A stretch of 64,000 nucleotides of DNA from Candidatus Nanopelagicaceae bacterium (lineage in GTDB: Bacteria; Actinomycetota; Actinomycetes; Nanopelagicales; Nanopelagicaceae): contig SHVK01000001.1 of assembly GCA_009694285.1 (NCBI GenBank), positions 1 to 64,000 of the forward strand, read 5' to 3'. Position 1 is the stretch's first letter. Each line of letters starts with the position of its first letter. A program made the translations under genes and the position numbers. Under the pieces are notes generated by a model. It was not told where the DNA came from and did no database searches. It was given only the letters and a program-made list of their open reading frames with translations. Below are positions 31,959-58,429 of this stretch, piece by piece.

Positions 31959-32170
31959 AGCGCTAGAACTTCGGTGAAAAGGGTGGTTTTGGGGATTGCG
32001 CACAGTTGAGGCAGAATAGGGCCCGTTGTAGTTGTGGTTGAAGTACCCCTCGATCGAGTCGCCCCGCCGCAGGGGGTAGCGAATCTCGATAGTTGATCGA
32101 GCTAGTTCAAGTAAGGCGCTCGTCCCGCGGCGATCTCCTTCCAGATCTTTTAAGAATGCAGGTATTAGAA
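31959..32170 (+). other. Structured leader upstream of rplS
   Basis: Within this 212-base gap TACCCC (32044-32049) pairs with GGGGTA (32073-32078), enclosing the palindrome CTCGATCGAG (32049-32058). A second hairpin CTCGAT-AGTTG-ATCGAG lies at 32085-32101. The two share the CTCGAT/ATCGAG arms, so they can swap partners. No T-run follows. A ribosomal-protein leader is plausible, though no known family was recognised. Confidence 0.5.
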
Positions 32171-32629
32171 ATGAATATTCTTGACTCCTTAGATGCTGCC
32201 TCACTTCGCAGCGATATCCCAACTTTCCGCTCTGGCGATGAACTTAAAGTTCACGTACGCGTTATTGAAGGAAGCAAAAGTCGTATCCAGGTTTTCCAAG
32301 GTTTAGTAATTAGTCGCAGCGGCAGTGGAGTTCGTGAAACTTTCACTATCCGCAAAATTTCATATGGTGTTGGAGTTGAACGTACCTTCCCAGTCCACAC
32401 CCCTGTAATTGAGAAGATTGAAGTTGTTCGACGCGGAGATGTGCGTCGTGCCAAGCTTTATTATCTTCGCGAGTTGCGCGGAAAAGCTGCCAAAATTCGT
32501 GAGCGTCGTGGCGAAGTTCCTTCAACTGGTACCCCAGTAAGCGCAGTTACCTCGGCTCCTGTTTCTGAAGTGACTGAAGCAACTGAAGTGGCAGAAGTTG
32601 TAGAAGCAGCAGCTACCGAAGAGAGTTAA
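32171..32629 (+). CDS. rplS: 50S ribosomal protein L19
   Basis: L19 (152 residues) begins [23 protein letters not shown] and has the core [19 protein letters not shown] and [29 protein letters not shown] 30-residue Ala/Glu/Val-rich tail is added. The start follows the family; an in-frame ATG 15 bases upstream is possible. lepB starts five bases after the stop. Confidence 0.94.
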
Positions 32630-44905: not shown

Positions 44906-45397
44906 GTGTTATCAACTTCCTCGATTAAGACACCAATAGGTTCACTGATCTGGATTGCAGATAGTGATCTTGTTTTAGCTGCAGGATTTACTACTGTAGA
45001 AGAACTGTCCTTGAAATTATCAAATGAGGAACAAGAAAGAGAAATTAAGAGCAGTAAAGCAGTTGGCAAAATTGCAGATTTAATTAGCGCCTATTTTGAT
45101 GGCGAATTAGATGCGTTAAACGCAATAGAGGTGCGTCAGCCGGGATCTCATTTTTCACAAGCTGCGTGGAAAGCAATGCGGAAAATTAAAAGTGGAAAAG
45201 TAATCTCTTATGCAGATTTAGCCCAACGTGCTGGGTCGCCAGCGGCCGTTCGTGCAGCGGGTATGGCATGCAGTCGTAATGCGATTGCACCAATTATTCC
45301 GTGTCATCGTATTGTCAAAACTGGTGGCGCACTTGGAAATTATGGCTATGGAGTGTCGAAGAAAGAATGGTTATTGAAACACGAAGGTGCCATTTAA
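44906..45397 (+). CDS. ogt: O6-methylguanine-DNA methyltransferase
   Basis: Ogt (163 residues) transfers methyl groups from O6-methylguanine to its own cysteine in IIPCHRIVKTGG. The DNA-binding wing is AVRAAGMACSRN. The N-terminal domain (SIKTPIGSLIWIA) is shorter than in Ada. It starts with GTG; TAGCCT six bases upstream suggests a leaderless mRNA. It is a suicide repair enzyme. Confidence 0.95.
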   Translation: MLSTSSIKTPIGSLIWIADSDLVLAAGFTTVEELSLKLSNEEQEREIKSSKAVGKIADLISAYFDGELDALNAIEVRQPGSHFSQAAWKAMRKIKSGKVISYADLAQRAGSPAAVRAAGMACSRNAIAPIIPCHRIVKTGGALGNYGYGVSKKEWLLKHEGAI

Positions 45398-45430
45398 CTT
45401 GCTCATTAGTGTTGCTCTGAATACTGTTTA

Positions 45431-46320
45431 ATGGTGAATTCCAAGATCTTTCTCACTGCTAAACGTGGCCCGGCAATAGCATTTGCACTTTTAAGCACTG
45501 CAATTTTGATTTTCCTGCCAATTGTAAGTGGCTTCTATCTTGCCGTAGGTAAATCTAATCCAGCACCTAAAATTGCTCATTCCCTTTTAGCAAAGAGTGA
45601 GTTTGAGATGCTGCTGCAAATAAATTGATTGAAAGTATTTCAAAAGATGCAAAAGGAGCAGAAGCACTACTTTTCAAAGCTAAGGCGAAAGAAATCAGAG
45701 TAGCTCTTTCTGATGCAATGTGAACAAAAGCTTTTGAAGATGAGGTAGTTGGAATAACCCAGACGTCTTACGACTTTTATGTAGAAGGCGATAGTCAATC
45801 TACAACAATAGATATCCGCCCCATCGCCTCGATGGCATTAAAAGCTTTTTCTAAAGTTGCGTCACTTTTCTCACTAGCGGAAGACCAAATAAAAGATATT
45901 GATCTAATTTCGCTTAATAGTGTGAAATCTGATGTCGATTTAAAACAAATTAAAGGCGGATTTATGTGGCTTGTCTTTCTCTTATGGATTGGGTTTATTT
46001 TGTTTTCTGCTCTTTATTGGAAATTTGCTAGTAATTTGCACAACGTGTTGAAATTCTCCGGAATTCAAAGTGCAGTATTTGTGGTAATTTCTATTTTGAT
46101 TTACCTGATTGGATCCGCGGCTGGTGGAAGCATCGGGGGAAATTCGGCTGATCAGTTACCGCAAATTGCTATACCAATAGTTGTGCAATCGGTGATCTCA
46201 CCATTTTTAACTCTTGCATTTTTGGGTTTCATTGTGAGTTCAATGCTGGTTGGGTATCTCTTTAAAATGGTTCGAAAGCAGCTCAAACCCACTAATTATC
46301 CAGAATTAGCTAGCGCCTAA
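45431..46320 (+). pseudogene. Broken gene for a four-helix membrane protein
   Basis: An N-terminal frame (45431-45628) with a TM segment stops at TGA, but a -1 shift near 45610 continues in the frame that reaches 46320. That frame is then interrupted by TGA at 45721-45723 (after SDAM). Past it the reading frame continues to an ATG at 45832 and through three more TM helices (IGFILFSALYW; FVVISILIYLIG; FLTLAFLGFIVSSMLV). A one-base deletion and one nonsense change are the simplest explanation; assembly error is the alternative. I do not recognise the family. The 3' end overlaps a convergent gene by 15 bases. Confidence 0.75.
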
Positions 46321-47208
46321 GCGGTACCAACTGTTTGCGGTTTTCCACATAACATCCTCACGAGTGGTTAAAGCATGACGAGCAAGAGTGTTTTCAAAGT
46401 TGGTCGCTAATTTCTCCAACGAAACAAACTGGCGATCGACTGGGAAATTGCTGCCCCACATCACGCGATCTGGGGTAAATAATTCCAGTGCCGTATCAAC
46501 CAAAGTATCCATTGCATCGCTCGGCCAGTTTCGGTGATACATGTACAGACCACTCAATTTAATCGCAATATTTTCATGTGCGGCTAATTTTACTAACTCC
46601 GCTTTCCAATCAGCAATTCCGGCATAGTCCCACTTAAGTGGCATGATGAAATGGTTAATTACCATCTTGGTTTGCGGAAACTCTTGCGCCAATCTTGCAG
46701 CCCCTGCTGATTGATCTGGGAAAATTTGGAGGTCAAAGATCATCCCTTGGTCACCAAGGTGAGCAAAGTTTTTACGCCAGGTTTTGTCGCGCATAATCTC
46801 AGGAGAATCAGTGAAGGTGTACTTGGGATCTACGTGGTAATTTAGAATCTGTCTAACGCCAACAACTCGATCACTGGCTTGGCGATGTGCCGCTAGTAAC
46901 TCCGGGAAATCCGCTTTGAGCAAATTACCACCAGCGACAATTGCGTATGGAGTCTCAAAATCGGCCAAAGTTTTTGCTAGCCATTTACTTTCGCCAACTG
47001 GGTTAGTTGGATCCCACGCGGCTTCAACATGGACTAAGCCAGCAAGTTCGATAGTGGCAGTGTCTTTTCGATATTCGGGCAAAAGATAATCAATTGCTAA
47101 ATTTTTTAAATTGCCAAAAGCTGCTTCGCGATCTTCCGGATCAGTCAACCATGGATATGTCCCTACTTTTAAATCCCATAGATGCATATGTGAGTCGATG
47201 CATTTCAT
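46306..47208 (-). CDS. Amidohydrolase-family sugar lactonase
   Basis: The 300-residue TIM-barrel protein has the metal-binding DSHMHLWD start, MVINHF and the terminal MWGSNFPVDRQF. It resembles L-fuconolactonase and 2-pyrone-4,6-dicarboxylate lactonase. GAGAGG lies eight bases before the ATG. It forms an operon with the SDR upstream and a SnoaL-like gene, an arrangement seen for sugar oxidation to lactone and then acid. The exact sugar is not determined. Confidence 0.85.
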   Translation of the reverse strand: MKCIDSHMHLWDLKVGTYPWLTDPEDREAAFGNLKNLAIDYLLPEYRKDTATIELAGLVHVEAAWDPTNPVGESKWLAKTLADFETPYAIVAGGNLLKADFPELLAAHRQASDRVVGVRQILNYHVDPKYTFTDSPEIMRDKTWRKNFAHLGDQGMIFDLQIFPDQSAGAARLAQEFPQTKMVINHFIMPLKWDYAGIADWKAELVKLAAHENIAIKLSGLYMYHRNWPSDAMDTLVDTALELFTPDRVMWGSNFPVDRQFVSLEKLATNFENTLARHALTTREDVMWKTANSWYRLGAS

Positions 47209-47212
47209 GTAA

Positions 47213-47995
47213 TTAACCTCTCTGTAAGTCGAGGGTATCTGTGGCTTCTGGGCTCAAAGCCAAGTAACCACCATCTACAGCTAAATCTGCTCCGGTCACA
47301 AAACTTGCGTCAGGGCTAGATAGCCAGGCAACCGCTGCAGCAACTTCATCAGGTTCACCACAACGATTCATCATCGAGTAAAGCCCCCAGACAGGTTCCC
47401 ATTTTTTGCGGTCTCCTTCTGCTGCTTCATCAAGAGTTTCAGTCCAAATCCATCCGGGACTTACTGAGTTAACGCGGATACGATCTTTGGCAAGATCTAA
47501 TGCTTGGCATTTAGTTAATTCAAGAAGTGCGCCTTTCATGGCGTTGTAAGTCCATCGACCAGTTTGAGCACGATGTGCAGAGATGCTGGTGATATTTACG
47601 ATCGCCGGATTAGCACTCTTGCGAAGTTGGCTTAGTGATTGGGTCACTAAATTGGCCCCTGCCAAAAGGTTCACTTCAAAAGTCTTTTGCCATTGTTCAC
47701 GAGTGGCATCAATACCAGAAAGCAAAAAGACCGCAGCATTATTTATTAAAATATCTAGCGAACCACCTTCACTCACTGCTAAATCAATCGCTTTACCGCG
47801 AATGGTTTCATCGCAAACATCGCCTGCGACAATATGCAAATTAGGATTATTTAAATCGACCTGCATTTGTTTTAGTAATTTTTCATTTAAATCAAGTGCG
47901 ACTACAGAGATACCATCTTTTAAAAACCTACGTACACAAGCTGCACCAATTCCAGATGCTCCTCCAGTTACGATCGCTGTTCTTTTTCCACTCAT
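47213..47995 (-). CDS. SDR-family dehydrogenase, probable sugar dehydrogenase
   Basis: The 260-residue short-chain dehydrogenase has TGGASGIG near the N terminus, NNAA, and the catalytic YNAMK. VTGADLAVDGGYLA ends it. It would oxidise a sugar or alcohol with NAD(P). The start MSGKRTAIV is preferred because AAGGAG lies nine bases upstream; a longer frame to 48025 overlaps the SnoaL gene. The lactonase follows after four bases, so this enzyme may produce its lactone. Confidence 0.88.
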   Translation of the reverse strand: MSGKRTAIVTGGASGIGAACVRRFLKDGISVVALDLNEKLLKQMQVDLNNPNLHIVAGDVCDETIRGKAIDLAVSEGGSLDILINNAAVFLLSGIDATREQWQKTFEVNLLAGANLVTQSLSQLRKSANPAIVNITSISAHRAQTGRWTYNAMKGALLELTKCQALDLAKDRIRVNSVSPGWIWTETLDEAAEGDRKKWEPVWGLYSMMNRCGEPDEVAAAVAWLSSPDASFVTGADLAVDGGYLALSPEATDTLDLQRG

Positions 47996-48014
47996 GATTG
48001 GGATCTCCTTTAGA

Positions 48015-48374
48015 TTAAAAAGCACCTAGATTAAAATATGCAGTTAGGTGGGTAAATTTATTTTTCTTTCTTTTCATTATGTTTACTCCACTTAGATCCA
48101 GGACTCGCCCATCTGGTGCAATTAATTTAGCGCACCATTCCACTGTTCCTTCATACTTATCACCGTATGATCGCATTACTTCAACACTCAATCCTGGATA
48201 AGCGGCTGCGCTATTTTCATAAAAGGTTCGAATTTGATCATGTCCGACAAGTGTTACTCCATCTGGGCCAGTCCACCTTGCATCTGCTGAGAAGAAGGAA
48301 AGAATTGAATTAATATCCCGACTTTCCTCAGCTGTCCAATACTCCCTAGCAAGCTTGGTTAATTTGTTTTTCAT
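48015..48374 (-). CDS. SnoaL-like (NTF2 fold) protein
   Basis: The 119-residue protein has the cone-shaped NTF2 fold of SnoaL-like isomerases and hydrolases (LAREYWTAEESRDINSILSFFSADARW, YENSAAAYPGLSVEV). AGGAG lies seven bases before the ATG. It is in one run with the SDR and lactonase. Catalytic function is unknown; isomerisation of a pathway intermediate is one possibility. Confidence 0.8.
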   Translation of the reverse strand: MKNKLTKLAREYWTAEESRDINSILSFFSADARWTGPDGVTLVGHDQIRTFYENSAAAYPGLSVEVMRSYGDKYEGTVEWCAKLIAPDGRVLDLSGVNIMKRKKNKFTHLTAYFNLGAF

Positions 48375-48394
48375 AGATAAACTCCTGTTTTGAT

Positions 48395-49273
48395 TTATTT
48401 ACGAGTAAAAGTAGAAAGATAATACTTCGGGTTAACCTGCATGGCAATCATTGCGAAGACAATGAGAGATCCTCCAACGAGTGTTCTAGCGGTAAGTATT
48501 TCCTGGCCAGCAATCACGGCCACAAGAGCGGCAAAAACCACTTCAAGAGTCAAAATTACCGCAACTGTTGTTGCATCCATATGAGCTTGGGCCCAAGTCT
48601 GAATCAGGAAACCGGCAGAGGTTGCAAAGAGTGCGGTTATTAATATTGCTTTCCATACTTCACCATCCGGGGGAGTTACGTATCCATTTGAAAAGCCAGC
48701 AATACCAGTAAAAACTGTAACGGTGGCAAGTTGCACAACCGTCAATGGGTAAGTCGAAAAACGTGAAGACCATTCTCCGAGTCCGATGATATGAAGGGCA
48801 AAAAAGAGAGCACAAAGCAATGTCAGGAACTCCCCGAACCCTATTGCCCATCCACGAAGTGAAAGCAATCCAAGCCCAATAGTGGCCAGTAAGACCGCAG
48901 CCCATTCAATTTTGGTAATTACTTTCTTTAGAAAAATTGCACTTAGCAGCGGCGTGAAAATCACATATAAACCAGTTACAAAGCCAGTAATTGCGGCAGT
49001 TGAATGAGTAAGTCCTGTTGACTGCGTGATGTAACCAAGAGTAAGCAGTAATCCAAGTGGAACTGCAACACTTAACATTTTTAAGTCAATCTCTTTTAGT
49101 ACTTTAGGTCGAATTGCAATTAAAATTAAAGTTGCAATTGCAAATCTAGTACCAAGAAAATCATTTACCGGCTGACGTTCAAGTGCATCTTTCATCAGTA
49201 CAAATGCGGCACCCCAGACCGCAGTTACTGCGATCAAACCAATTACTGCCCAAAGTCTTTTTCGATTACTCAC
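48395..49273 (-). CDS. EamA family (DMT) transporter
   Basis: The 292-residue transporter has ten hydrophobic helices in two EamA repeats (VTAVWGAAFVLMKDAL; FATSAGFLIQTWAQ). It is the second DMT transporter in the window and is only distantly like the one at 40507. It starts with GTG overlapping the nfo stop by four bases. Co-transcription with nfo and the downstream SnoaL gene is likely. Substrate unknown. Confidence 0.9.
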   Translation of the reverse strand: MSNRKRLWAVIGLIAVTAVWGAAFVLMKDALERQPVNDFLGTRFAIATLILIAIRPKVLKEIDLKMLSVAVPLGLLLTLGYITQSTGLTHSTAAITGFVTGLYVIFTPLLSAIFLKKVITKIEWAAVLLATIGLGLLSLRGWAIGFGEFLTLLCALFFALHIIGLGEWSSRFSTYPLTVVQLATVTVFTGIAGFSNGYVTPPDGEVWKAILITALFATSAGFLIQTWAQAHMDATTVAVILTLEVVFAALVAVIAGQEILTARTLVGGSLIVFAMIAMQVNPKYYLSTFTRK

Positions 49274-50166
49274 TTTTTAGCACGTAACTTTTTTAAGATT
49301 TGCACCTCTGCGCCATGTTCTGGCTCAGCACCTGGAGTTTCAAGAATTAATGGAACGTTTTTCATAGCCGGATGATGCATTAACTCGCGAAAAGGCTCAG
49401 TCCCGATATGACCTTGACCAATAGATTGATGGCGATCTTTAAGAGCGCCACAAACATCCATTGAATCATTTGCATGAACTAATTTAATTCGATCAGCGGT
49501 TGCTACTGAAATTAACAAATCAAGAGTTTCGTTCATCCCACCTTTTTTAGAGATGTCATGACCGGCAGCAAAAACATGGCAGGTATCAAGGCAAATTCCA
49601 ACCTTTGGGTGATACTCAAGTGCAACTAAATATTTTTCTACTTCATTTATCTTTTTGACAAGTGATTGTCCTTGTCCTGCAGTAGGTTCCAAAAGTAGAA
49701 AAGGTGAATCATCTGAAAGATTTTCCAAAATTGGCAGCATTCCATCGTGAATTTGTTTCCATGATTTTTCCACATAATCTTCATTTACTGCAGAACCGGT
49801 GTGAATCACCACGCCAAGTGCACCAAGATCGCCACCGCGTTTTAATGAATATTCAGTTGCGGCTAACGAGTTTTCATATGTAGCAACAGTGGGAGAGCCA
49901 AGGTTAATTAAAAATGAGGCATGGATATATGTGGTGATATCCATATCGGCGGCACCATTACGAAAAGCTAAATCTGCTACAGGATCTGGAGTCGGCATCG
50001 CCCAAGCGCGAGGACTTGAGGCGAAGATCTGAATACTTTCAGCCTCAATAGTTTTGGCGTAGCCAAGGGCGCGTTTTGCCAGACCACCAGAGGTAGGTAC
50101 ATGTGCACCAATGCGCGGGCCGATTCCGGAAGATTTCCGCGCATTAGGTGTTTTAGAAGTGGCCAT
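49270..50166 (-). CDS. nfo: Endonuclease IV
   Basis: Nfo (298 residues) cuts DNA at abasic sites in base excision repair. Metal-binding motifs are IGAHVPTSGG, GVVIHTGS, CLDTCHVFAAGHDI and VHANDS, with IGQGHIG. The ATG at 50166 is preferred because TAGGCT lies seven bases before it, the leaderless spacing. A frame open to 50208 would overlap the kinase gene. Length is near the family norm. Confidence 0.95.
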   Translation of the reverse strand: MATSKTPNARKSSGIGPRIGAHVPTSGGLAKRALGYAKTIEAESIQIFASSPRAWAMPTPDPVADLAFRNGAADMDITTYIHASFLINLGSPTVATYENSLAATEYSLKRGGDLGALGVVIHTGSAVNEDYVEKSWKQIHDGMLPILENLSDDSPFLLLEPTAGQGQSLVKKINEVEKYLVALEYHPKVGICLDTCHVFAAGHDISKKGGMNETLDLLISVATADRIKLVHANDSMDVCGALKDRHQSIGQGHIGTEPFRELMHHPAMKNVPLILETPGAEPEHGAEVQILKKLRAKK

Positions 50167-50173
50167 AACAGTA

Positions 50174-50179
50174 AGCCTA
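50174..50179 (-). promoter_or_regulatory. -10 hexamer of nfo (leaderless)
   Basis: On the minus strand TAGGCT (50179-50174) ends 7 bases before the nfo ATG and lies in the short gap after the PASTA kinase stop. Confidence 0.5.
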
Positions 50180-50194
50180 GGCGGTTGGCCCGGA

Positions 50195-52117
50195 TTATTT
50201 GAGGTCAATTAATACAGTTGAACCGCGTTTAGCCTTACTTCCTTGTAGTGGTGTAACTCGGAACACCTTGGGGACCTTTCCAGTGATCTTTTTACTTGGC
50301 ACCACCGCTTTAACGACAAATCCAGCATTCTCCAATTTCTTAGTGGCTGATTGCTGGTCAGTTTTCAATAAGCCAGTAGGTACGAGGACATACTCTGGCC
50401 CTTTGGAAACAGTCAGAGTAATTTTTGACCCACGAGCCATTTTTAATTCCTGTGGGTCACGCGAGATCACATTTCCGGCTTTAACGGTTTCACTAAATTT
50501 TTCTTTAACAGTGACATCAAATCCAGCATCATTTAATTCAGTTAAGGCTTGATCTGAGCTCTTTCCGGCATAAGCACCTACATCTATTAGATCAGAACCC
50601 TTGCTGATCAAAAGATTTACTGGTGAATTCTTCTTAAGTATCTCTCCGAAGGTAGGGGAGGAGCCAATAATTAAATCTTTCTCAATTTTTTCATTAAAAA
50701 CGTAATTTGTACTTCCAATCACAAGTTTTGATTTGGTCAGCAAAGCACCAGCGTCAGCAAGAGATAATCCTGAGAGTTTAGGTACCAGATATCGTTCGGG
50801 ACCTTTAGAGATAGTTACGTTAATTAATCCATCCGCTGCAATCTTTTCTCCTGCTGATGGGTTCATCTCAATAACTCGGCCTTTGCCAATTTCTTCGCTG
50901 AAAATCTCTTTGGTGATTTTCAAATTTAAATTTGCTTGCGTCAAAGTGTTTTTGGCTTCACTACTTTTCATGCCCACAATAGAAGGGATTGATACTTTAG
51001 CGCCCGGACCAAAATAGTTATACCAAGTCGCACCTGCACTTAGCAGAAATGCAAAAAATAGGACGATAGCAATAATCCGATTTCGTCTTACGCGTTTTGA
51101 TGTTTGCCTGCGAATTTCACCTGTATCTGAATATTTGTTTTGGATAACAGGAACAGTATCCATTTTTTTGGAAATCTCTTTTATCTTTTTAACTTTTGAC
51201 CGCGGCTCTTTTTTGATTGGCACAGGCAGCGGTGGAAGTCCAAGTGGCAACGAGAGCTGTCTATTTGCTGGATCAATCGCAATCTGTGCAAGACGGACTA
51301 ACTCCGATAATTCTTGGGCATTCGCCGGTCGTAAATCTGGATCTGGAGAAGTTGCTCTGACCACTAACTCATCGACCTCTTTAGGCAAATTTGTAACTAT
51401 TGTTGAAGGGGCAGGAATGCGCTCATTAACATGTTGATATGCAATATGTATTGGGGATTCGCCTTCATAAGGTTTTTTACCGGTTAAAGCTTCAAAAGTC
51501 ACAACACCTAGTGAGTAGACATCGCTTCGCGCATCAGCGATGCCTCGTTGAACTTGCTCAGGGGCTAAATATGCAACAGTTCCAAGTAAGACACTTGCAT
51601 CAGCAGTTAAAGTTTGCCCTGCTGACATCGCTCTAGCTAAACCAAAATCTCCAACCTTAATTTTTCCTTCTGTAGAGATCATAATATTTTCAGGTTTTAA
51701 ATCGCGGTGCACAATTCCTGCTTTGTGAGCAACCGCAAGAGCACTTAATACCTCGCTTAAAATTGGCAGTACTTCCCCAGGAGCCAATCGACCTTTTTGA
51801 TTTATGAGATCACGCAAAGTGCTTCCACTTACAAGTTCCATAACTAAAAAGACGGCCGGGGTTCCGCCGGTGTTCCATCCTTGGTCATGGACTGAAATCA
51901 AATTAGGGTGTGAAATCGCCGCAGCAGCTTTCGCCTCTCGAATAAACCGGGCAACAAAATCTTCATCTTGAGCAAGATGGGCGTGCATGATTTTTACAGC
52001 GACCGGGCGATCTAGTCTGGTGTCAATTGCCGAGTAAACGGTGGCCATGCCACCGCTGGCGATTACCGCTCCAATTTGGTAGCGGCCATCTATTAGTTCA
52101 CCACGCAAATCGGACAC
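50195..52117 (-). CDS. pknB: PASTA-domain Ser/Thr protein kinase (PknB family)
   Basis: The 640-residue membrane kinase has a eukaryotic-type domain (ASGGMATVY P-loop near 20; AVKIM with Lys42; HRDLKPENIM; VGDFGLA), a juxtamembrane linker, one TM helix near 348-367 and four PASTA repeats to the C terminus. PASTA domains sense muropeptides or lipid II, linking growth to cell-wall state. It starts with GTG; TACACT lies six bases upstream. It is not in the usual dcw/pstP cluster. No phosphatase is near. Confidence 0.94.
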   Translation of the reverse strand: MSDLRGELIDGRYQIGAVIASGGMATVYSAIDTRLDRPVAVKIMHAHLAQDEDFVARFIREAKAAAAISHPNLISVHDQGWNTGGTPAVFLVMELVSGSTLRDLINQKGRLAPGEVLPILSEVLSALAVAHKAGIVHRDLKPENIMISTEGKIKVGDFGLARAMSAGQTLTADASVLLGTVAYLAPEQVQRGIADARSDVYSLGVVTFEALTGKKPYEGESPIHIAYQHVNERIPAPSTIVTNLPKEVDELVVRATSPDPDLRPANAQELSELVRLAQIAIDPANRQLSLPLGLPPLPVPIKKEPRSKVKKIKEISKKMDTVPVIQNKYSDTGEIRRQTSKRVRRNRIIAIVLFFAFLLSAGATWYNYFGPGAKVSIPSIVGMKSSEAKNTLTQANLNLKITKEIFSEEIGKGRVIEMNPSAGEKIAADGLINVTISKGPERYLVPKLSGLSLADAGALLTKSKLVIGSTNYVFNEKIEKDLIIGSSPTFGEILKKNSPVNLLISKGSDLIDVGAYAGKSSDQALTELNDAGFDVTVKEKFSETVKAGNVISRDPQELKMARGSKITLTVSKGPEYVLVPTGLLKTDQQSATKKLENAGFVVKAVVPSKKITGKVPKVFRVTPLQGSKAKRGSTVLIDLK

Positions 52118-52123
52118 ATCGTG

Positions 52124-52129
52124 AGTGTA
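52124..52129 (-). promoter_or_regulatory. -10 hexamer of pknB (leaderless)
   Basis: On the minus strand TACACT (52129-52124) ends 6 bases before the GTG start of the PASTA kinase. Confidence 0.45.
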
Positions 52130-52163
52130 AACAACTTGAGTGGTTTAACTTCGGAGCCTTGCC

Positions 52164-52742
52164 CTACATAATTTGAGTATTGCTACCATCAACAAAAATC
52201 TGACAATTTTCTTTAGTCTGATCCTGTAGGAAATGTGCTCTTTCGCGCTCCTGCCACTTCAACATATAGGGCAATATCTGGGCACCATCTCGATTCAAGA
52301 CTCTGGCTAACCCTATTTGCGGGCCAACTTCAATCCAGATGGTCAGATCTGCTTGTTGGCGAATCATCGTCTGAGCAGCACCAACGCCTTCTAAAATTAA
52401 AATTTCAATATCTCTGACTTCAACCGATGGCCCGTACTCGTTGCTAGCCCAATTAAATTTCTGATACTTAACGCCTTGATGCTCTTTTAGTGGATAGGTA
52501 ATCCATTCTTCCAAATGTTTAGTCAGAGTGGCTGTAAGGGCATCCTCCCAACCGTTGTACAGATCATCCATATGAATTGTTGTAACAGAGTTCAATTTAT
52601 TGGAAAGCTGATTTGCTAAAGAAGTTTTTCCAGAACCCGCGGGGCCGTCGATTGCAATTAAAATTAGTCCTTCTTTACGCAAGGAAATTTCTACGATCGC
52701 AGAAACAATTGGTTCAACTTCATGCTCTGGAAAATTAAACAA
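52164..52742 (-). CDS. P-loop kinase coupled to the thiamine transporter
   Basis: The 192-residue protein is a uridine-kinase-like P-loop phosphotransferase: IDGPAGSGKTSLA Walker A near residue 32, then TIHMDDLYNGW and the ILEGVGAA segment. The frame is open further upstream but would overlap the transporter; a TTG at 52742 begins one base after the transporter stop, giving tight coupling. It belongs to the TPP-riboswitch unit. I infer a thiamine-salvage kinase; a true uridine or nicotinamide-riboside kinase is the alternative. Confidence 0.75.
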   Translation of the reverse strand: MFNFPEHEVEPIVSAIVEISLRKEGLILIAIDGPAGSGKTSLANQLSNKLNSVTTIHMDDLYNGWEDALTATLTKHLEEWITYPLKEHQGVKYQKFNWASNEYGPSVEVRDIEILILEGVGAAQTMIRQQADLTIWIEVGPQIGLARVLNRDGAQILPYMLKWQERERAHFLQDQTKENCQIFVDGSNTQIM

Positions 52743-52743
52743 T

Positions 52744-53331
52744 TTATAAATTTCCCTTAGATTGCTTATGCTTTTTAAACCAACGTGTCCAGCCAAGAAT
52801 TGCCATTGCAGTAAATACTGCATAAACCAATGAGGTGAAGTAATAGCCTCCGCGGGCGTATTGAACTGTTAGGACGACATCAACTGCAAACCACAACACC
52901 CAACTTTCCCACTTCTGGCGGACCATCAAAATTTGCGCAGCACCACTTCCAAGTAAGCCAAAAGTGTCGCTCCAAATTGCAACAGCGCCTATAGATTTTA
53001 AATATGGGGCAAAGCCAATCCAGATCGCACTAAAGATTCCTAGCGAGATCCACTTACTTCGTAGTGACATATTGGAAGGTTGGGCACCTTTTTTACCCCA
53101 ACCAAACCAGCCCCAAATTCCGAATCCAATAAAAATGAATTGAGTTGCAAAACTTGCGTAGTACTTGGCTTGATAAAACCAGATTGCATACAGAATAGAA
53201 CTGGTCACCCACCATGGCCAAGTTATCTGTTTCCCAGTTGTTCCAAGATAGACGGCAATTAATGAAACTATCGCAGCCGTGAATTCAAGAAGTGATACGT
53301 CATATCCCCAAGCAGTGAATAAAGTAAACAT
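52744..53331 (-). CDS. pnuT: PnuC-family transporter, probable thiamine uptake (PnuT)
   Basis: The 195-residue membrane protein of the PnuC family has about seven helices, with conserved WPWWVTSSILYAIWFYQAKYY and a WESWVLWFAVDV segment. PnuC members carry nicotinamide riboside, riboflavin, deoxynucleosides or thiamine. The TPP riboswitch directly upstream points to thiamine. GGAGG lies four bases before the ATG. A kinase that could trap the vitamin follows one base after the stop. Confidence 0.9.
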   Translation of the reverse strand: MFTLFTAWGYDVSLLEFTAAIVSLIAVYLGTTGKQITWPWWVTSSILYAIWFYQAKYYASFATQFIFIGFGIWGWFGWGKKGAQPSNMSLRSKWISLGIFSAIWIGFAPYLKSIGAVAIWSDTFGLLGSGAAQILMVRQKWESWVLWFAVDVVLTVQYARGGYYFTSLVYAVFTAMAILGWTRWFKKHKQSKGNL

Positions 53332-53338
53332 TTATCCT

Positions 53339-53416
53339 CCTTCCAATCCGCATTACCGGACTGGTTCGACGGTCGGTGAGATTTTCACCCTCTCAGCCTT
53401 GGCGGCTCCCGTGTGT
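53339..53416 (-). promoter_or_regulatory. TPP riboswitch (THI element)
   Basis: Read on the minus strand, ACGGGAGCC is followed by GGCTGAGAGGG (core CTGAGA at 53396-53391), then ACCGACCGTCGAACCAG and TCCGGTAATGCGGA. These are the conserved pyrimidine- and pyrophosphate-helix elements of the THI-box. The 3' end runs into the GGAGG of pnuT, which fits control of translation start by TPP. Confidence 0.92.
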
Positions 53417-53467
53417 TGTAAACCTTATCAGTGGCGTAAGCGATTGTGATCTGCGAAAATCCTATAT

Positions 53468-53800
53468 GTGAACCATCTTTCCTATATTGCCATGTTGGCC
53501 TTTACCGTTGCCGGATCTTTCTGGCTGGAGATTGCATTAAAAGTCCGAGTACTAAGGCGGATCAGAAGAGCGATTCTGGCAATCGCTCCGGTAGCACTAT
53601 CTTTCCTGCTTTGGGATGCGTACGCAATTGCAAATAAACATTGGTATTTTGATAAGCAACAAATAATTGGCTTATTTGGTCCACTAAATATCCCGCTGGA
53701 AGAGTACTTATTTTTTATAGTGATTCCTCTTGCAGCGATCATGACTATTGAAGCGGTACGAAATGTTAAAAAGAATTGGATCATCGGTGATGAACAATGA
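53468..53800 (+). CDS. crtYc: Lycopene cyclase subunit, CrtYc type
   Basis: The 110-residue protein has three TM helices and the PLEEYLFF motif of the heterodimeric lycopene cyclases of Actinobacteria and archaea. Together with CrtYd it closes the beta- or epsilon-ring of lycopene. It starts with GTG, divergent from the riboswitch, and its stop overlaps crtYd by four bases. No SD is visible. Confidence 0.9.
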   Translation: MNHLSYIAMLAFTVAGSFWLEIALKVRVLRRIRRAILAIAPVALSFLLWDAYAIANKHWYFDKQQIIGLFGPLNIPLEEYLFFIVIPLAAIMTIEAVRNVKKNWIIGDEQ

Positions 53801-54105
53801 GCTATACCCAAATTTCGATATTCGCTGTCATTGTTGCTGTGATTCTAGATCTTTTCATAATTAAAACGACGCTCTTGAAGAGGGCTGCCTTTTGGACCTC
53901 TTACGCAATAATTTTGCCTTTTCAATTTCTTACTAATTGGTGGTTAACATCACAAAATATTGTTATGTATGATCCTGAGATGATTATCGGCACACGGTTT
54001 TTTTCAGCACCCGCAGAAGATGTTTTCTTTGGGTTTGCATTAATTTTATCAGTTTTATCTCTTTGGATTAATTTAGGAAAACGTTCGAGCGCAAACCGCG
54101 CGTAA
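53797..54105 (+). CDS. crtYd: Lycopene cyclase subunit, CrtYd type
   Basis: The 102-residue partner of CrtYc has three hydrophobic helices and the APAEDVFFGFAL motif (PxED), the second half-site of the cyclase. The ATG overlaps the crtYc stop (ATGA). Its 3' end overlaps the convergent crtB gene by 33 bases, so the two carotenoid operons share their ends. Confidence 0.9.
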   Translation: MSYTQISIFAVIVAVILDLFIIKTTLLKRAAFWTSYAIILPFQFLTNWWLTSQNIVMYDPEMIIGTRFFSAPAEDVFFGFALILSVLSLWINLGKRSSANRA

Positions 54106-54981
54106 CCATGCCGGAAAAGCAACTTTAATTCTGCGCCAAGTAGAAGTTTTAGCTCGCTTCGTAAAAATTTGGTAATTCATTGCTTCAACTTCATCAACTA
54201 TTCCACAGTACAACTCACTTGCGGCTTCGATACATGCCCTGCTGCTTTTATCCAACATTTCAATACCTGGAGCGGCTTCGCGCTGTAATTTACGCACTCG
54301 TTCGATATTGAATTTCAAGGCGTTGATGATCTCTGGGGTAAGGATTCGTTTTTCTAAATCTGATCGAGCGACTCCGAATGATGCCAATTCATCAAGGGGG
54401 AGATAAACCCTTCCTCGATCCAGATCTTCACCAACATCTCGAATAAAATTAGCCAACTGGAAAGCGATTCCCAGCTTTTCAGCACAGTCATAAGCGCCAG
54501 GGGATAGCGGCCCAAGAATCGGAACCATCTGTAAACCAATTACGGCTGCAGATCCATAAACGTACTCCATCAAATCTTCATAATTTTTATACTCCGTTAC
54601 AGATAAATCCATCTTCATCGAGTGTAAAAATGCTTCAAAGTATTTTACCGAAATATCAAATCGAGTCACCGTATCTATGAGCGCAGCCCCAATTAGATCG
54701 GCGCTTTTACCACTAACTAAATCCCTTAATATCTGATCACTCCACTTTTGCAAGGCTTCTGCTTTTTCTACTTCGCTAAGCGTCGAATTCAGATCATCAA
54801 CAATCTCATCGGCATACCGAGCGAATCCATAAAGAGCATGAACAAAGGGACGTTTTGCTTTTGGAAGAAGTAAAGTTGCTAAATAATAAGTTTTTCCATG
54901 GAGGGAGTTCAGTCTTTTACACTCTGCGTAGGATTCACGTAAATCTTGGCGATGAATTCCGGCAGCCGTTAGTTCATCCAC
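54073..54981 (-). CDS. crtB: Phytoene synthase
   Basis: CrtB (302 residues) joins two geranylgeranyl diphosphates to phytoene. The two Mg-binding motifs are ADEIVDDL near residue 59 and NFIRDVGEDLDRGRVYLP near 165. It starts with GTG overlapping the crtI TAG by one base. The operon is crtE-crtI-crtB on the minus strand. Confidence 0.96.
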   Translation of the reverse strand: MDELTAAGIHRQDLRESYAECKRLNSLHGKTYYLATLLLPKAKRPFVHALYGFARYADEIVDDLNSTLSEVEKAEALQKWSDQILRDLVSGKSADLIGAALIDTVTRFDISVKYFEAFLHSMKMDLSVTEYKNYEDLMEYVYGSAAVIGLQMVPILGPLSPGAYDCAEKLGIAFQLANFIRDVGEDLDRGRVYLPLDELASFGVARSDLEKRILTPEIINALKFNIERVRKLQREAAPGIEMLDKSSRACIEAASELYCGIVDEVEAMNYQIFTKRAKTSTWRRIKVAFPAWLRAVCARTFS

Positions 54982-56459
54982 TATTTTTTCCCAAGGATCC
55001 GCTCAGCGGCTAACCTTCCAGAGATTAAAACCATTGGCACGCCAACTCCAGGTTGAGTTCCTGATCCAGCAAAAACTATATTTTCAAAACCGGCAGCTAA
55101 ATTTCTTGGTCTGAAAGGACCAGTTTGGAAAAAAGTATGTGCACTTGCAAATGGTGCACCTCGCTCCATTCCTTGAGCTTCCCAATCTAGCGGAGTAGTC
55201 AGGTGTTCGACTTCAATTGAATCACCAAAATCTGTGTAGCCCCTCTGCTCCAGTGTTTTTACCATCTGGTCTCTGTACTTCGGTCCGGTAACTTTCCAAT
55301 CAATATCGGCATCAAGATTGGGAGTTGGGAATAGCACATAGTAAGACTCTTTTCCAGGAGGCGTTAAGGATTTATCATCAAGGGAAGGAACTGTTACCAA
55401 AATAGATGGATCAGTCATTAAAATCTTTTTATTGATTAGCTCATCGAAAACCCCATCCCATGAACGTCCAAAATGAATATTGTGATGTGCAATATGGTCA
55501 TAAGATTTTTTTGATCCAACCAACATAGTTACACAAGAAGGGGAGTAATTTAAGCGCTTTATAGACCAAGGCTCTTTCCCAATCAATTCCTTCCAAGCAA
55601 CTGGCAAATCTGGATTTAAAATAAGTGCATCACATGGAATTCGTTCGCCTTCTGTGGTTATTACAGCCGTAGCACGACCATTGTTTTTTTCAATAGTGGC
55701 CGCTGTTGTTGAATACTTAAATTTGACTCCATGTTTTTCAGCAGCTGCGGCTAAAGCTCGAGGGACCGCATGCATTCCACCACGAGGGAAGAAGACTCCA
55801 TTTACCGAATCCATGTAGGCGATAACTGCATAAATTGCTAAGGCTTGCTGAGGGCTTACGCCGGCATACATGGCCTGAAAGGAGTAAACCTTTTGGGTGC
55901 GCGGGTCTTTGAGAAATTGCGAAACTTTAGGAGATAGTTTACGAAACCCACCAATAGCGATCAATCTAGCTAAATTTGGTGTCAACAACCCAAACGGAGA
56001 ATCAATATTACGATCGATAAAATCATTAATTTCATATTTATATAACTTAGTAACAAAATCTACATAGTTGCGATAGCCGATTGCTTCTTCAGGGCCAATG
56101 ACCTTTGCAATCTCTGCTTCCATTTCTTTAGTGTCTGGGTATACGTCAAGTTGTGACCCATCGTGGTAAAAAGCGCGGTAAAGCGGGCGGAGTGGAATTA
56201 AATCCAACCAATCTTTCATTTGTTCACCAACGCTATTAAATGCGTCTTCGATCAACGAAGGCATGGTCAAAACTGTTGGGCCAGTATCAAAGTTATATCC
56301 ATCTTTTTGTAGCAATCCACTTCGACCACCCGGTACTTCCTCACGTTCAATAACGGTTACTGATCTTCCAGCTCCCGCAAGTCGTAATGCCGCACTTAAA
56401 CCAGCAAGTCCAGCACCAACTATTACTACATTTTCGGTCGCTCCTTTAACGGTACGCAT
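54981..56459 (-). CDS. crtI: Phytoene desaturase
   Basis: CrtI (492 residues) desaturates phytoene to lycopene with FAD. The N-terminal dinucleotide motif VIVGAGLAGLSAA and PGGRSGLLQKDGYNFDTGPTVL are followed by the C-terminal PGVGVPMVLISGRLAAERI. The ATG at 56459 is preferred because GAGGAG lies nine bases upstream; an ATG three codons earlier abuts that site. It lies 18 bases after crtE. Confidence 0.95.
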   Translation of the reverse strand: MRTVKGATENVVIVGAGLAGLSAALRLAGAGRSVTVIEREEVPGGRSGLLQKDGYNFDTGPTVLTMPSLIEDAFNSVGEQMKDWLDLIPLRPLYRAFYHDGSQLDVYPDTKEMEAEIAKVIGPEEAIGYRNYVDFVTKLYKYEINDFIDRNIDSPFGLLTPNLARLIAIGGFRKLSPKVSQFLKDPRTQKVYSFQAMYAGVSPQQALAIYAVIAYMDSVNGVFFPRGGMHAVPRALAAAAEKHGVKFKYSTTAATIEKNNGRATAVITTEGERIPCDALILNPDLPVAWKELIGKEPWSIKRLNYSPSCVTMLVGSKKSYDHIAHHNIHFGRSWDGVFDELINKKILMTDPSILVTVPSLDDKSLTPPGKESYYVLFPTPNLDADIDWKVTGPKYRDQMVKTLEQRGYTDFGDSIEVEHLTTPLDWEAQGMERGAPFASAHTFFQTGPFRPRNLAAGFENIVFAGSGTQPGVGVPMVLISGRLAAERILGKK

Positions 56460-56477
56460 TACTTGCATCTCCTCATG

Positions 56478-57539
56478 TTAGATCTTACGTTTCGTAGCCA
56501 TTAGGGCTAATTCATTTAAATATGGTTTGGAATTTTCGGCGATGTGTTCAGATTTAAGTTCTTGCAATGCGCTAGTCGTTAAATCTTCAATCAGTGCTTC
56601 AACTTTTTCTGGTGCACCAACTTCGGTAATTAAATTTCGAAGTTGTGAGATCTGATCAGGAGTTATATTCAAATCGCCAAAATTTGTATTAAAAGTGTGT
56701 GTTTGGAAGGTGGAAAAATTTTCTATAGCTAAAGCAGTAAGTACTGTGCGCTTTCCTTCCCGCAGGTCATCCCCAGCCGGCTTCCCAGTTGTCTCCGGAT
56801 CTCCAAAAACCCCAAGTAGGTCATCGCGCAATTGGAATGCCTCACCTAATGGAATGCCAAATTTAGAAAGTGCAGAGATAGTTTCAGGAGAGGAGCCTGC
56901 AATTAGTGCACCGAAATGTAACGGCCGCTCGATTGTGTATTTTCCAGATTTGTAACGCGCCACTTTTAATGCTCGCTCTACGCTAGCGGTGGTGGCCGCA
57001 CTTTCCCGAACATCTAAGTATTGCCCTGCAATTAACTCAATTCGCATTAGGTCATTGAGTGGAAGCAACCTGCGCAACTGTTCATCAGATAAGCCAGATT
57101 CATTTATTAATTTGTCAGCCCAGATCAATGCAAAATCGCCAAGCAAGATCGCCGCAGATAAACCAAACTGCGCTTTGTCACCACGCATGGAATTTTCGAG
57201 GTGGTAATTTTCAAAGTAGCGATGGACGGCAGGTGCGCCACGCCGCATGTCGGAACCATCCATGAGGTCATCATGAATAAGGGCACAAGCTTGTAATAGC
57301 TCGAGAGATGTTGCCGCCTTCAACATATTTTTTAATTGCGCACCATCATTTTGACCACCAGCGGCCAGGTATCCGGCATGTGCAAAGAGCGGGCGAAACC
57401 TTTTTCCGGTGGCTAGAAAGCTAGTGATTTCGGAGCTAACTGGGGTTAGTTCTGCGGAAATCTCGGACAAGTCGAGGGTTATACGCTCGAGAAAATCTTT
57501 TAAGGTGGTTTCAATTTCTAAACGGGGGGCAGAGAACAC
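56478..57539 (-). CDS. crtE: Geranylgeranyl diphosphate synthase
   Basis: The 353-residue polyprenyl synthase makes the C20 precursor for carotenoids. The first aspartate-rich motif is DDLMDGSDMRRG near residue 93 and the second DDLLGVFGD near 228. It starts with GTG only 23 bases from the divergent metF start; TAGCGT lies six bases before it. It heads crtE-crtI-crtB. Confidence 0.95.
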   Translation of the reverse strand: MFSAPRLEIETTLKDFLERITLDLSEISAELTPVSSEITSFLATGKRFRPLFAHAGYLAAGGQNDGAQLKNMLKAATSLELLQACALIHDDLMDGSDMRRGAPAVHRYFENYHLENSMRGDKAQFGLSAAILLGDFALIWADKLINESGLSDEQLRRLLPLNDLMRIELIAGQYLDVRESAATTASVERALKVARYKSGKYTIERPLHFGALIAGSSPETISALSKFGIPLGEAFQLRDDLLGVFGDPETTGKPAGDDLREGKRTVLTALAIENFSTFQTHTFNTNFGDLNITPDQISQLRNLITEVGAPEKVEALIEDLTTSALQELKSEHIAENSKPYLNELALMATKRKI

Positions 57540-57545
57540 ATGGCA

Positions 57546-57551
57546 ACGCTA
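57546..57551 (-). promoter_or_regulatory. -10 hexamer of crtE (leaderless)
   Basis: On the minus strand TAGCGT (57551-57546) ends 6 bases before the crtE GTG. It shares two bases with the metF hexamer on the other strand. Confidence 0.5.
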
Positions 57552-57555
57552 CCCT
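57550..57555 (+). promoter_or_regulatory. -10 hexamer of metF (leaderless)
   Basis: TACCCT ends 7 bases before the metF GTG. The same hexamer and spacing precede yraN. Confidence 0.5.
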
Positions 57556-57562
57556 GCACCTC

Positions 57563-58429
57563 GTGGATAACGCTCATCGGAACCTCTTGACCGAACTCTC
57601 TTTTGAATTTTTTCCGCCTAAGGACCAGGCAGGTGAAGAGCGATTATGGCAAGAGTTAACTCAGTTGCGATCGCTATCTCCCAAATTTGTTTCGGTTACT
57701 TATGGGGCAGGCGGCTCGACCCGCGAACGGACTATTCGAGTCACTGAAGAAATTGGCCAGCGAACTGGATTAGATACCGTCGCCCATTTAACTTGTGTCG
57801 GCTCATCTCAATCCGAGCTTTCAGAGGTGCTGGATTCCTATAAGAGAGCGGGCATTAAAGAGGTATTGGCATTGCGTGGAGACCCAGTTGGGGGACCACT
57901 GGCGACATGGGTAGCAACTACCGGAGGGTTTGATCATGCCGACCAACTTGTAAAACTAACCATAGAGAAAGGGTTAGGGGTTGGAGTGGCCGCATTCCCA
58001 GATCTTCATCCTGCATCAAACGGAAATGTTGAATTAGATCTAGAAACACTGCTTCGCAAAGAACAATTTGGTGCAACTTTTGCGATCTCACAATTCTTTT
58101 TTGAAATATCTTCTTGGGAAAGATTGATGAATCATTTAGAAAAAGCCGGATCAAAATTAAAATTAATTCCAGGAGTTATGCCAGTTACTAATGTTAAGCA
58201 ACTTGTAAAGTTTGCCCAATTATCAGGAACTCAAATTCCTGATAAAACGCGAGCAAGGTTTGAAGCAGTAGCAGAGGATGAAAAAGCCGTGCGGGAACTT
58301 GGTGTTGAAATTGCAGCTGAACTATGCACGCAACTATTGGCACTCGGTTGTAAATCATTGCATTTTTATACAATGAATACTGCAGAGGCAACAGTAAAAG
58401 TTTGCCAGAGTTTAGATTTAGGTAAATAG
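57563..58429 (+). CDS. metF: Methylenetetrahydrofolate reductase
   Basis: MetF (288 residues) reduces 5,10-methylene-THF to 5-methyl-THF for methionine synthesis, with FAD. ELSFEFFPPKD with the catalytic Glu and VTYGAGGSTRE lie near the N terminus; LALRGDP and FFEISSW follow. It starts with GTG, probably on a leaderless mRNA. The next gene starts three bases after its stop. Confidence 0.95.
   Translation: MDNAHRNLLTELSFEFFPPKDQAGEERLWQELTQLRSLSPKFVSVTYGAGGSTRERTIRVTEEIGQRTGLDTVAHLTCVGSSQSELSEVLDSYKRAGIKEVLALRGDPVGGPLATWVATTGGFDHADQLVKLTIEKGLGVGVAAFPDLHPASNGNVELDLETLLRKEQFGATFAISQFFFEISSWERLMNHLEKAGSKLKLIPGVMPVTNVKQLVKFAQLSGTQIPDKTRARFEAVAEDEKAVRELGVEIAAELCTQLLALGCKSLHFYTMNTAEATVKVCQSLDLGK

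Follow-up and report, generated by a model that had tools for sequence, protein, structure and literature searches.

An intact member of the protein family studied here is carried by Actinobacteria bacterium IMCC26077 (CP015606.1), and it is similar in length and layout to the gene that concerns us, being 27% identical over the protein to a sister copy of that gene, but it lies among other genomic neighbours. We take the IMCC26077 group to be the freshwater acI/Nanopelagicales lineage. The named records of the other family members are uncultured actinobacterial MAGs, and a literature search by terms other than the names of the gene or of its neighbours returned no report on this gene; in PMC5301498 the word "pseudogene" occurs once, as a criterion for the choice of reference genomes. 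Closer relatives are found in the genus to which the window belongs, the window being the whole 64,000-nucleotide stretch of a Candidatus Nanopelagicaceae bacterium contig (SHVK01000001.1) that was analysed. When the C-terminal piece of the window gene was used as a query against 60 genomes, the window genome included, three of the four other genomes of the genus matched strongly, at 74-79% identity, and three further genomes of the bacterial family matched weakly; searched at the DNA level, all five genomes of the genus, counting that of the window, gave a match. The three strongly matching sisters, Kiruna3_bin-1268 (CAIUXE010000107.1), WBA_3_178 (RGZI01000006.1) and UFOp-RH-15aug16-288 (WLKK01000032.1), each hold a single ORF that is open across 288 codons and is flanked upstream by a methylguanine-DNA methyltransferase-like gene and downstream by an amidohydrolase gene that faces it, the same neighbours on both sides as in the window, where the corresponding copy carries three lesions. 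The fourth sister, which the C-terminal query had missed, is open for its first 118 codons, at which point its contig ends. Comparison with intact homologues in sister genomes, which the preliminary description of the locus had proposed as a check, thus rests on three intact and syntenic copies and a fourth that is open as far as it extends.

The features of the locus are collected in Table 1. That description had read two frames of the window as parts of one protein, and this holds, with both frames matching the single 288-aa sister protein and together covering 99% of it as query: the first part of the protein matches one frame, and residues 59-288 match the other at 77-79% identity and with one stop. 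The family profile detects the two halves in the window genome at E 3.1e-110 and 3.7e-25, so the one-gene reading is not a matter of chance. The 65-aa and 162-aa ORFs stand in frames offset by -1; homology in the 5' remnant ceases at 45604, the remainder to 45628 being out of frame, and the second frame is free of stops along its length except for the TGA. A GTG at 45434, aligned with the ATG of the sisters, is probably the orthologous start.

Table 1. Features at and around the interrupted gene, in window coordinates
Feature	Position	Strand	Remarks
Methylguanine-DNA methyltransferase-like gene, Pfam PF01035, intact	44906..45397	+	Upstream; same position in sisters
5' remnant ORF, 65 aa	45431..45628	+	N-terminal transmembrane helix and beginning of extracytoplasmic part
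Loss of one base at codon 58 of the intact gene, shifting the frame by -1	between 45604 and 45605	+	DNA alignment with three sisters
3' remnant, second frame: residues 59-288 of intact protein plus 8-residue run-on	45607..46320	+	
In-frame TGA at codon 97; glycine codon in 3/3 full-length sister copies	45721..45723	+	
Longest start-to-stop ORF within 3' remnant, 162 aa	45832-46320	+	From ATG 45832; carries all three C-terminal helices
5-base insertion, abolishes normal stop codon	46299..46303	+	DNA alignment with three sisters
Amidohydrolase-family gene, Pfam PF04909, intact	46306..47208	-	Downstream, facing; same position in sisters

The -1 shift and the in-frame TGA had been placed near 45610 and at 45721, respectively, and both were recovered where expected, the original coordinates being accurate to a few bases, and alignment with the sisters adds a third lesion that had escaped notice, namely the insertion at the 3' end. 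Since this insertion takes out the normal stop codon, the frame is extended as far as 46320, and 15 bases of it are shared with the 3' end of the facing gene. Within ~0.9 kb, one gene contains lesions of three kinds: the loss of a single base, a nonsense mutation, and an insertion that destroys the stop codon.

We conclude that 45431-46320 is very probably a genuine unitary pseudogene, of recent origin, derived from the gene for an uncharacterised membrane protein. Close relatives hold an intact orthologue in the same place, the lesions are disabling, and a profile search of the 50 contigs of the genome (86% complete) for a second copy matched only the two halves described above. Under this reading the ancestor of the genus would have encoded an intact 288-aa protein, the gene would have turned dispensable in the lineage of the window, and the three lesions would then have been acquired, in whatever order. 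Either the deletion or the TGA alone would end the product short of the second transmembrane helix, and no full protein could be made; we infer that living cells, and not the assembly alone, carry the lesions, and that the protein is not produced.

The preliminary description had left the choice between recent decay and an assembly problem, and the second of these, in which misassembly, strain mixing or a sequencing error has given a wrong consensus for a gene that the organism carries intact, is the alternative that survives best, although we consider it improbable. The genome is a draft, in 50 contigs and at 86% completeness, and strong purifying selection was kept on the window branch, as it would be for a misassembled intact gene; both points count against the pseudogene. 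The artefact would, however, need three errors of different kinds within ~0.9 kb, among them a 5-base insertion and a substitution. The window was compared with 113 ORFs, each 100 aa or longer, from five stretches of sister contigs; it has 36 ORFs that do not overlap one another and have an orthologue in a sister, amounting to 32.5 kb and lying at 30.7-64 kb, the part of the window that the comparison covered; opposite-strand shadow ORFs of longer genes, which were flagged with stops, were excluded from this count. Only one of the 36, the gene at 45431-46320, is clearly broken, the other 35 being whole or altered only near the C-terminus. The ORF at 52744-53331 has its stop a few codons before that of one sister, the ORF at 32093-32629 was considered as a second altered gene and rejected, its frame being intact and its tail variable, and the remaining compared genes match their sisters without an internal stop. 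With three lesions in this gene and none clear in the 35 other comparable genes (~32 kb), decay is favoured: if three random errors were distributed over these genes, the second and third would join the first in this gene in ~0.07% of cases by our own arithmetic, and random error is unlikely to have brought three different lesions together in one gene. In the same part of the window the GC skew changes sign at ~46 kb, from ~+0.1 to ~-0.05, up to ~58 kb (window 46000-58000), a change that roughly tracks the point from which most genes lie on the minus strand.

Selection was measured both pairwise and by branch. Nei-Gojobori dN/dS is 0.14-0.22 between the window and its sisters and 0.10-0.175 between sisters, and a codon model written for this analysis gives a window-branch omega of 0.226 against 0.118 elsewhere (p 0.035), with omega=1 on the window branch rejected at p 8e-7; selection therefore acted over most of the branch. 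On this branch omega is also raised for the intact neighbours, the methylguanine-DNA methyltransferase-like gene having an omega of 0.196 against 0.081 (p 0.084) and the amidohydrolase gene 0.125 against 0.037 (p 0.004), the latter perhaps as a lineage-wide effect, and the raised omega of the broken gene was for this reason rejected as proof of decay. The best topology for the broken gene is not that of its neighbours. Purifying selection on the window branch fits recent loss and an assembly artefact equally.

It is less probable still that the gene has been split, in the sense that the 162-aa C-terminal piece is made from its own ATG and functions as a three-helix membrane protein. The open frame does hold all three C-terminal helices and the window-branch omega is below 1, but the stretch between the TGA and this ATG would go untranslated although it retains an in-frame match to the sisters, the normal stop has been lost too, and a two-piece arrangement is not seen among the 31 genomes of the bacterial family that match the family profile, the broken copies apart. 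Recoding, in which a programmed -1 frameshift and readthrough of the TGA would yield the full protein from two frames that both still match the family, can be practically dismissed even with one other member (in genome G214) also interrupted by a TGA, since all three full-length sister copies are single-frame and need no recoding, no slippery heptamer is visible by eye in the frame overlap, slipping by -1 exactly where the homology breaks off leads into a TGA, RNA folding around the break does not exceed that of shuffles (z 0.42), an Rfam search of 45000-47000 matched no family, TGA is an ordinary stop that terminates 13 of 61 selected ORFs, and the G214 TGA lies at another codon. A search of the window for tRNA and tmRNA genes found none.

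The intact protein is an uncharacterised membrane protein, with no function readable from searches with its predicted structure. The architecture suggested in the preliminary description, an N-terminal helix followed by a soluble part and three further helices, agrees with the sister comparison, and the protein would cross the membrane with a single helix at its N-terminus and with three at its C-terminus, an extracytoplasmic domain of ~130 residues, largely helical, lying between them. An AlphaFold2 model built from five sequences, which is of low confidence (mean pLDDT 65.8, pTM 0.58), likewise begins with one long helix and ends with three, the part between being mostly helical with two short strands; Foldseek matched this model to no PDB entry at E <= 0.001, and a PDB sequence search for a solved relative gave nothing below E 0.1. 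Searches of the sister copies against Pfam returned only weak sub-threshold matches, with nothing above the curated cut-off, and NCBIfam likewise gave nothing above its curated cut-off and one match at E 0.11. Five Pfam families each had a match to a single one of 22 wider-family members (E 0.0026-0.0076), and these matches were treated as noise.

The distribution of the family is patchy. Of 251 genomes of the bacterial family, 31 contain a match to a four-member profile; they fall in 8 of 17 genera and include 5 of 5 genomes of the window's genus. A 22-member profile applied across the phylum matched 6 of 296 genomes, the window's own counted. The four-member profile found no match in the other 220 of the 251 genomes, and absence of the gene is therefore tolerated. 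CAMAPN010000024.1 (L017), titled as a Bifidobacterium breve MAG, carries a member of the family, the members otherwise occurring mainly within the bacterial family of the window; its organism label is probably wrong, because its protein has the same score as that of G071, a genome of the window's bacterial family. In-frame stops interrupt the match in two of the 31 genomes, that of the window and G214, whose copy (L033:1468-2325, minus strand) is likewise broken by an in-frame TGA but differs in the codon affected, in having a single lesion and in belonging to another genus; this TGA represents either an independent decay event or an error. It is possible, if rather doubtful, that a clade-restricted membrane protein lacking a described domain has been lost repeatedly and independently in streamlined freshwater actinobacteria, the present locus then standing at an early stage, with three lesions acquired and the DNA not yet deleted. 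The decay itself is of an ordinary kind, local in its effect and with nothing new to say on mechanism. Its value is that of a small, checkable case of gene loss in progress in the reduced genome of a freshwater bacterium, in which an uncharacterised membrane protein that is kept in sister species can be lost.
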